Both the position numbers and the translations under genes were made by a program. Shown in pieces: positions 41,279 to 43,715 of a stretch of DNA of 44,373 nt. Position 1 is the stretch's first letter. Every line of letters begins with the position of its first letter. The stretch comes from Thermoleophilia bacterium. GTDB taxonomy: Bacteria > Actinomycetota > Thermoleophilia > Solirubrobacterales > 70-9. Below the pieces are notes generated by a model, which was given only the letters and a program-made list of their open reading frames with translations, was not told the DNA's origin and made no database searches. Location: assembly GCA_016649905.1 (NCBI GenBank), contig JAENWU010000007.1, forward strand, positions 1-44,373. The letters are read 5' to 3'.

Positions 41279-43240
41279 GTGCTCCCGCCCTCTGGGATTC
41301 GATACCACCTGAGCAGCGACGCCGACACCCGTAGCGCCAAAGTGCGCACCCCAGCCCAGGCGGCGCTGATCGTCGGCGCCCTGGGTGTCGTCTTCGGCGA
41401 CATCGGGACCAGCCCGCTCTACACGATCCAGACGGTCTTCAACCCGAGCGACCCGCATCCCGTCAGCGCCACCACGGAGAGCGTCTTCGGGATCATCTCG
41501 CTGATCTTCTGGGCGGTGACGATCATCGTCACGCTCAACTACGTGCTGTTGGTGATGCGCGCCGACAACGAGGACGAGGGCGGCATCATGGCCCTGATCA
41601 CCCTGATCAGGCGCCAGGCGGTGGCCGGGGGCAAGCGGACCAAGCTGGCGCTGGCGGCGCTCGGCATCTTCGGCGCCTCGCTGTTCTTCGGCGACAGCAT
41701 GATCACGCCGGCGATCTCGGTGCTGTCGGCGGTCGAGGGGCTGAAGGTGGTCCAGCCCTCGCTGGAGCACCTGATCGTGCCGATCACCGCGGTGATCATC
41801 GTCCTGCTGTTCGCGACCCAGCGCCTGGGCACCGCTGCGATCGGCCGCCTCTTCGGCCCCGTGATGATCGTCTGGTTCCTGGCGATCGGCGCCTGCGGCA
41901 TCTCCGGCATCGTGCTCGAGCCGGAAATCCTCAAGGCGCTCTCGCCGACCTACGCCCTGGACTTCATGACCGGCCATTTCGGGACCGCCTTCTTCGCGCT
42001 GGCGGCGGTCGTTCTGGCGGTCACGGGGGCGGAGGCCCTCTACGCCGACATGGGCCACTTCGGTCGCTCCCCGATCACGCGGGCCTGGCTGCTGCTCGTC
42101 TTTCCGGCCTGCATCCTCAACTACATGGGCCAGGGAGCGCTGATTCTCGGCGACCCGGCGGCGAACATCTCCAGCCCCTTCTTCCTGCTGGTCCCGGATT
42201 GGGGGCGAGTGCCGATGGTGCTGCTCGCCACGGCGGCGACGGTGATCGCCTCGCAGGCGGTGATCACGGGGGCCTTCTCGGTCGCCCGCCAGGCGGTTCA
42301 GCTCGGCTACCTGCCGCGTTTGCGGATCGCCCAGACCTCGGAGGAGACGGTCGGCCAGATCTACGTGCCCTGGATCAACTGGGTGCTGATGGTCTCGGTG
42401 CTGACCCTGGTCTTCGCCTTCCAGACCTCCTCGGCGCTGGCGTTCGCGTTCGGGATGGCGGTCACCGGCACGATCACGATCACGACGCTGCTGTTCTTCT
42501 ACATCGTCCGCCATCAGTGGGGGAAACCGCTCTGGCTCGTGGTGATCGGCGGCGGTGCCTTCCTCGTCGTCGACTTCTTCTTCCTGGCCGCGAACCTGAC
42601 CAAGATCACGCATGGGGCCTGGCTGCCGCTGCTGATCGGGATCGCCGTGTTCACGGTGATGACCACCTGGCAGCGCGGCCGCGAGCTGGTCACCGCGCGG
42701 CGCGAGGGTGTCGAGGGCTCGCTGCGCGAGTTCGTCGACCAGCTGCACGAGCGGCGGCCCTCGTTGCAGCGCGTCCCCGGCACCGCCGTGTTCCTCAACC
42801 GCAACAAGTCGACGACGCCGCTGGCGATGCGCGCCAACGTCGAGCACAACCAGATCCTCCACCGGCACGTGGTCATCCTCTCGATCGAGACCCTGCCCGT
42901 TCCCCACATCGCCCCGGCCGACCGGCTCGAGATCGACGAGCTCGGCTACGCCGACGACGGGATCGCTCACGTCGGCGCCCGCTTCGGCTATATGGACGAG
43001 CCCAACGTCCCGAGCCTTCTGCGGCTGGCCGCGGAATCGGGTCTCGAGTGCCCGCTCGAGGTTGACGAAGCCTCCTACTTCCTCTCCACGATCGAGCTGC
43101 GGGTCGGCGACGCGCCCGGCATGACTCGCTGGCGCAAGCGCCTCTTCGTCGCGACCTCGCGTATCACCGCCGACGCTGCCGAGTACTTCGGCCTGCCGCG
43201 CGATCGCACCGTGATCATGGGTTCGCGGATCGAGGTCTAG
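41279..43240 (+). CDS. kup: Kup-type potassium transporter
   Basis: A 653-residue K+/H+ symporter of the Kup/HAK/KT family. The hallmark N-terminal block LGVVFGDIGTSPLYTIQTVF is present. It is followed by NEDEGGIMALITLIRR, LFFGDSMITPAISVLSAVEG, GAEALYADMGHFGRSPI and the C-terminal cytosolic domain (RVPGTAVFLNRNKSTTPLAM). Twelve spans are expected and roughly that many hydrophobic segments are seen. GTG 41279 is taken as start; it lies 66 bp after the USP gene, too short a gap for a c-di-AMP riboswitch. It complements the high-affinity Kdp pump as a constitutive, lower-affinity system. Confidence 0.95.
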   Translation: MLPPSGIRYHLSSDADTRSAKVRTPAQAALIVGALGVVFGDIGTSPLYTIQTVFNPSDPHPVSATTESVFGIISLIFWAVTIIVTLNYVLLVMRADNEDEGGIMALITLIRRQAVAGGKRTKLALAALGIFGASLFFGDSMITPAISVLSAVEGLKVVQPSLEHLIVPITAVIIVLLFATQRLGTAAIGRLFGPVMIVWFLAIGACGISGIVLEPEILKALSPTYALDFMTGHFGTAFFALAAVVLAVTGAEALYADMGHFGRSPITRAWLLLVFPACILNYMGQGALILGDPAANISSPFFLLVPDWGRVPMVLLATAATVIASQAVITGAFSVARQAVQLGYLPRLRIAQTSEETVGQIYVPWINWVLMVSVLTLVFAFQTSSALAFAFGMAVTGTITITTLLFFYIVRHQWGKPLWLVVIGGGAFLVVDFFFLAANLTKITHGAWLPLLIGIAVFTVMTTWQRGRELVTARREGVEGSLREFVDQLHERRPSLQRVPGTAVFLNRNKSTTPLAMRANVEHNQILHRHVVILSIETLPVPHIAPADRLEIDELGYADDGIAHVGARFGYMDEPNVPSLLRLAAESGLECPLEVDEASYFLSTIELRVGDAPGMTRWRKRLFVATSRITADAAEYFGLPRDRTVIMGSRIEV

Positions 43241-43274: not shown

Positions 43275-43283
43275 ATCGGGGCT
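43275..43283 (+). repeat. left 9-bp target-site duplication (ATCGGGGCT)
   Basis: Directly repeated at 43475-43483 and abutting both ends of the 191-bp inverted-repeat element. Confidence 0.75.
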
Positions 43284-43474
43284 CGTGAGTATCCGGTCCA
43301 CTCAGGCCGGGTCCCGAGCCCGTCGAGGACTGACGCCTCTGGGGCTGGCGAGGTCGGCGCAGCCGACTTTCGCCCCACCACAGTGGGGTCCAAGTCGGAT
43401 TCGCTACCGGGCCGGCGATCCGGCGAGCTCTCGACAGGCCCACAGTGCGAACCGGAGTCAACCGGATACTCATG
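43284..43474. mobile_element. 191-bp MITE-like element with terminal inverted repeats
   Basis: The left end reads CGTGAGTATCCGGTCCACTC and the inward-reading right end CATGAGTATCCGGTTGACTC, 17 of 20 identical. Weaker similarity continues to about 45 bases, both arms ending in a GTCGAG. A 9-bp direct repeat (ATCGGGGCT) abuts both ends, as a transposase leaves. The interior has no gene but two tight hairpins: GTCGGC-GCA-GCCGAC (43353-43367) and CCCCAC-CACA-GTGGGG (43373-43388). It lies 34 bp past the kup stop. A non-autonomous element moved by an unlinked transposase is the simplest reading; the 9-bp duplication fits several IS families and does not identify one. Confidence 0.75.
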
Positions 43475-43715
43475 ATCGGGGCTGTTCTTCGTCGATGGGC
43501 AGGGGAGGGAAAGCGGCGCCGGCCACCGCCTTGATCCCACGCACGTCGATCTCGGCCGGGGAGCGGTTGATCAGCTGCAGCTCGTAGGCGAGGTGCTGGC
43601 GCCCGTCGCTGGCGAGGACCGGTTCCGGGGTGGCGATTACGTTGGCGATGACCGGGGTCAGCACATCCTCGGCGCCCGCGCTCGCGACCGGTGCCGCCAG
43701 CAGGACGACGGCCAC
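43471..43715 (-). CDS. small exported protein, 3' end altered by MITE insertion
   Basis: An 80- to 81-residue frame from GTG 43715 with a hydrophobic start (VAVVLLAAPVASAGA) that is the end of a signal peptide. The frame is open further upstream (TARRFLCPAAALA), so the true start may lie a little earlier. The mature part reads ANVIATPEPVLASDGRQHLA, then YELQLINRSPAEIDVRGIKA. This resembles the beta-sandwich-like front domain seen before M23 peptidases in actinobacteria, but no peptidase follows. The last codons enter the right end of the MITE and stop there. Removing the element and one target duplication would give a TAA right after Gln-Pro-Arg, so the protein gained only one residue. Confidence 0.55.
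43475..43483 (+). repeat. right 9-bp target-site duplication (ATCGGGGCT)
   Basis: The identical partner of 43275-43283, falling inside the last codons of the minus-strand gene that ends here. Confidence 0.75.

Follow-up and report, generated by a model that had tools for sequence, protein, structure and literature searches.

MITEs derived from insertion sequences (ISs) are well known in bacteria and archaea (PMC2229807, PMC3852290), and a match to the parent IS that is confined to the borders is usual for them (PMC3852290). The pneumococcal RUP, which is derived from IS630-Spn1, is frequently found inserted in ISs (PMC2229807). Several ISs (IS1397, IS621, ISPpu9, ISPpu10, ISPsy8, and ISRm22) insert into REP palindromes; they belong to the IS3, IS110, IS4, IS256, and IS5 families, and their specificity has been ascribed to the transposase (PMC1525189). 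The target repeats are 8 bp long for ISApl4, a member of the IS1595 family, and 7–9 bp for IS1016 elements (PMC12561309). Our literature search turned up no earlier description of an IS1595-type MITE that sits at the centre of a different bacterial MITE, which is weak evidence of novelty, since most subscription papers fell outside its scope.

The window analyzed here is a stretch of 44,373 nucleotides from a Thermoleophilia bacterium. A reading made from the sequence only had proposed that it carries an intact 191-bp element with inverted ends matching in 17 of 20 bases and a perfect 9-bp target duplication, and this was borne out (Table 1). The ends, CGTGAGTATCCGGTCCACTC and CATGAGTATCCGGTTGACTC, match in inverted orientation at 17/20 bases and, over 23 bp, at 19/23. 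We examined the identical 9-mer pairs of the window at a spacing of 60–600 bp (n = 777), and only the ATCGGGGCT pair had inverted ends that match at 17/20; the runner-up had 13/20. When the window was randomised 100 times by a first-order Markov model, the best inverted ends reached 15/20, and no randomised window equalled the real one. The element has no transposase gene and contains short chance ORFs only.

Table 1. The window element, its neighbouring genes, and its relatives in the same genome (positions refer to the window; C numbers are contigs)
Feature	Position	Length	Strand	Remarks
MITE	43284..43474	191 bp	.	Inverted ends and exact 9-bp duplication; about ten related copies in the genome
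Target duplication, left copy, ATCGGGGCT	43275..43283	9 bp	.	Exact repeat
Target duplication, right copy, ATCGGGGCT	43475..43483	9 bp	.	Exact repeat
Left terminal inverted repeat, CGTGAGTATCCGGTCCACTCAGG	43284..43306		+	Matches the end of the 998-bp G009 IS (IS1595 family) locally over 22 bp (86%)
Right terminal inverted repeat, inward reading, CATGAGTATCCGGTTGACTCCGG	43452..43474		-	Matches of 82–88% to three IS1595-family IS ends
Central palindrome, CCGACTTTCGCCCCACCACAGTGGGGTCCAAGTCGG	43363..43398		.	Common to other copies and stand-alone extragenic palindromes
kup-like gene, upstream	41279..43240		+	Stop 34 bp before the insertion; G004 orthologue 88% identical
Convergent ORF	43470..43715	81 aa	-	Stop codon TGA now from the MITE end
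Copy C133		195 bp		Both ends present, exact 9-bp duplication
Copy C170		206 bp		Duplication differs at 2/9 bases
Copy C185		203 bp		At contig end
Copies C173, C159, and C160				Cut by contig ends
Copies C175, C129, and C188				One end missing

The window copy lies between two convergent genes, in the off-consensus target GATT-ATCGGGGCT-GTTC. From a reading of its protein, we take the upstream gene to be kup-like, which would encode a K+ transporter; the Pfam search of the 81-aa ORF on the other side gave no match. The empty form of the site is expected to run from the kup stop to GATTATCGGGGCTGTTC. With the element in place the ORF ends in ..EEQPRS* (TGA), and in the reconstructed empty site in ..EEQPR* (TAA), one codon earlier; the insertion would therefore be nearly harmless to proteins. 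The closest orthologous locus is G004:C114, which holds the kup orthologue of Table 1. It is unusable as a syntenic empty site because the DNA past its kup stop is unrelated.

The search of the element's own genome (G000; 2.9 Mb in 212 contigs) for further copies, a check that the sequence-only reading had called for, revealed about ten related copies with an intact end. The ten with at least one end are the window copy and those on C133, C170, C185, C173, C159, C160, C175, C129, and C188, of which C173 is without a target duplication. The exact paired-end pattern with a gap of 100–130 bp gave no match; the copies have longer interiors. Single end-like matches in other genomes (L028–L030, L032–L035) were taken as chance, the second end being absent. 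A scan of wider genome contigs for the end pattern yielded two isolated matches (Clostridia and Mycobacterium), a number within the estimated chance.

Full ISs with the same ends were found, two of them (998 and 1003 bp) within the genus and one (996 bp) elsewhere in the order, and not in the own assembly. In G009, which belongs to the same genus, the MITE end pattern (≤2 mismatches) occurs at both ends of segments of about 1 kb. These segments are the ISs of 998 and 1003 bp, and both are complete. Their inverted ends are CATGACTATCCGGTTC and CATGACTATCCGGTTA, with the terminal sequence CATGACTATCCGGTT, and they are flanked by exact 9-bp duplications (TGGGTACCT and AGGCGGCCT). Their ORFs encode 311 aa and, if an internal start is taken for the second, 294 aa; both match DDE_Tnp_IS1595 (PF12762; E 5e-32 and 2e-33). 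The Zn_ribbon_IS1595 domain (PF12760) was matched in the first IS (E 7e-16) and came just below the cut-off in the second.

Relatives of the transposase are present in 35 of the 232 genomes of the order. One in another genus (G128) is 71% identical and lies within the 996-bp IS, which has the ends GATGAC/CATGACTATCCGGTT and the 9-bp duplication AGCCCTGCT inside AAAGC-CCT-GCTTT. The related ISs of G055, G195, and G001 have inverted ends too, and their duplications are 8 bp long. The duplication lengths of these parent-type ISs, 9 bp in three and 8 bp in the related ones, fit the range of the IS1595 family. When the C133 copy was compared with a G009 IS, the left and right ends matched in order (22/24 and 25/27). 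The MITE and IS interiors had no convincing similarity beyond the ends, and the ends themselves differ in reading CATGAC in the ISs versus CATGAG in the MITE. No IS1595 transposase (PF12762) was detected in the own assembly, which is 92% complete and has collapsed repeats. The classification as a MITE thus gains support both from the further copies in the genome and from the full ISs of the same genus, which share the ends and the length of the duplication.

Most of the other copies have the flanks CCGAATAGC-NNN-GCT|CATGAG. Of the 10 copies that retain an intact end, eight occupy the exact middle of a palindromic target; the window copy and C173 are the exceptions. The search of the own genome with CCGAATAGCNNNGCTATTCGG (≤3 mismatches) gave 19 places, one of them weak, which leaves about 18 empty sites; the control search with the reversed pattern gave 0 matches. 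The empty central sites have the form AATAGC-NNN-GCTATT and are the centres of a second, unrelated family of palindromic repeats. The common form of this family is about 168 bp long (CTAGTGGTGTGACC...GGTCACACCACTAG) and also occurs in G004 and G009. An end of the second family also precedes broken transposase frames in G001 that match HTH_23/HTH_29 and DDE_3. By the DDE_3 domain and its CTAG ends, the family is presumably IS630-like.

The hosts of the nested MITEs have the same core as the second family and different outer ends. The C133 host reads AAT-AGCAGCGCT-MITE-AGCAGCGCT-ATT, that is, the empty site plus the element and its 9-bp duplication. The setting of the G128 IS is GAAAGC-CCT-GCTTTTC, which suggests that the preference for an AGC-N3-GCT dyad is a trait of the transposase clade; the fit of the two G009 ISs to this dyad is partial. 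The preference is probably a property of the transposase.

Some further features of the second family and of the nested repeats were observed. The CTAG-ended repeat of about 168 bp was found at the ends of contigs C32, C54, C65, C86, C87, C93, C98, C112, C122, C174, C179, C197, and C205 of G000. With at least 13 contigs ending in it, the repeat breaks the assembly. One CTAG-ended MITE copy in G009 (L135, C140) is without the central palindrome, apparently through a deletion. Three loci of G000 (L052, L059, and L066, on C212, C129, and C41) have a AATAGCAGCGCTATT-type core with very different outer ends, as if MITE families had swapped cores and ends. The sequence CCAGTGCTGAGCGCGAA is common to the right flank of L014 (C133) and the left flank of L018 (C175) in G000, on opposite outer sides of the nested repeats, a hint of a duplicated or rearranged segment.

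The sequence-only reading had also described the interior as folding into two tight hairpins, and one of these stood. The whole element folded better than shuffled DNA (z = -5.0), and this significance stems from the single central hairpin at 43363–43398, which has a DNA fold with z = -5.3 versus shuffles. The proposed second hairpin was indistinguishable from shuffles, the remaining candidate segments having z = -0.85 and +0.94. The palindrome (CCGACTTTGACCCCACC..GGTGGGGTCAAAGTCGG) is the best-conserved part of the interior among the MITE copies. In the covariation analysis of the hairpin, one pair had changed at both positions, a count below that of the shuffles; the Rfam search gave no match within the element, and the search for a terminator-like site at the window copy found none. 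The central palindrome is kept as a sequence, and the pair counts lend no support to selection on an RNA structure. It is found 21 times in the own genome, and five other genomes of the family have one or two occurrences each. Its form CCGACTTTGACC..GGTCAAAGTCGG stands alone at L179 (G000:C110:176-211), L181, L182, and L184, in the own and sister genomes; these stand-alone palindromes are apparently intergenic and often lie inside GCGCAT..ATGCGC. The palindrome core is thus wider than the MITE, because several occurrences stand alone without MITE ends. Inside the MITE it may carry a function.

The ends, the duplications, the copies, the empty sites, the nesting, and the parent-type ISs, which agree with the MITE in their ends and in the length of the duplication, are all read from the sequences. 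They are best explained, with a probability of about 0.9, by a non-autonomous MITE that keeps only the ends (about 23–27 bp) of an IS1595-family IS and would move as follows. A DDE transposase of the IS1595 type, acting in trans, would bind the CATGASTATCCGGTT ends and mobilise the element. It would join the element to a dyad-symmetric target, preferably AGC-N3-GCT, through staggered cuts 9 bp apart, and their repair would leave the 9-bp duplication. Of these steps, we infer the mobilisation in trans and the origin of the target preference in the transposase. Most copies would be nested because the own genome offers the preferred target chiefly in the middle of the second palindromic family, and the window copy would be an off-consensus insertion between convergent genes.

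The nested copies could instead have spread as composites, the host repeat and the MITE together. The left host arms of C133 and C175, which are 87% identical, agree with this, but the MITE bodies of the same two copies are only 59% alike; with C160 included, the host arms are 79–87% similar and the bodies 59–63% alike. The converse was found for C159, C160, and C170, whose bodies are 97–100% alike, and for C170 and C185 (96%): the host arms of these four copies are 57–63% alike, near background. Near-identical bodies in dissimilar hosts, together with the converse, indicate that the same central site was struck repeatedly in separate insertions, and spread as a composite is unlikely. Even less probable is mobilisation by a transposase of another family (e.g., DDE_Tnp_1, IS4-like) that has similar ends by chance. 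The own genome does contain DDE_Tnp_1 (PF01609) transposases while an IS1595 transposase was undetected, but none of the seven PF01609 loci (0/7) has a MITE end at ≤2 mismatches, and IS1595-family ISs in several genomes have these or closely related ends with 8–9-bp duplications. A parent among the PF01609 transposases of the own genome was ruled out, as none had matching ends.

The last alternative takes the repeat for a functional extragenic palindrome or a structured RNA, such as a terminator or an mRNA-stability hairpin, with an incidental duplication. The conservation of the central palindrome above the rest of the interior, its occurrence alone elsewhere in the own genome and in five other genomes of the family, and the location of the element between convergent genes would all suit such a role. 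The exact duplication and the paired ends are, however, far above chance, the reading is contradicted by a target that is found both filled and empty, and the hairpin has neither favourable covariation nor an Rfam family or a terminator-like site. We consider this the least credible of the alternatives, with hardly any weight.

The genome of the element offers a natural, countable system for target choice in the IS1595 family, with about 18 empty and eight occupied sites in one genome. It also shows a mini-transposon for which another repeat family serves as the landing pad, a habit that would keep insertions out of genes. For annotation, the results help to explain many of the contig breaks at small palindromic repeats in the own assembly. 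A broader proposal, to which we give even odds, is that the IS1595-type clade recognises AGC-N3-GCT in a longer dyad and that its MITEs colonised the centre of the IS630-like MITE family. Both families look modular, having palindromic cores with different ends or none, so palindromic repeats would act as gene-sparing landing pads.

The closest relatives of the element are the IS1595-family ISs (Zn_ribbon_IS1595 plus DDE_Tnp_IS1595) of the same genus and order, which are 996–1003 bp long, have nearly identical ends and likewise make a 9-bp duplication; unlike them, the MITE has no transposase gene and its interior is unrelated. Like other IS-derived MITEs, it is shorter than 250 bp and gene-free, has inverted ends and a target duplication, matches an IS at the borders only, and is present in several copies. 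It differs from them in being G+C-rich, in its duplication of 9 bp rather than TA, and in how strongly it favours the middle of another repeat family. Like the REP-targeting ISs, it is highly selective for an abundant extragenic palindrome as its insertion site, most copies being at one position. What inserts here, unlike in those systems, is a MITE bearing IS1595-type ends, and the palindrome that receives it forms the core of another mini-transposon-like repeat. RUP, too, is small and non-autonomous and favours other mobile DNA for its insertions, but it has a TA target, IS630 ends, and no single central palindromic site. The element thus represents a new MITE family of an already known kind, and its targeting of a nested palindrome is the interesting, not revolutionary, part.
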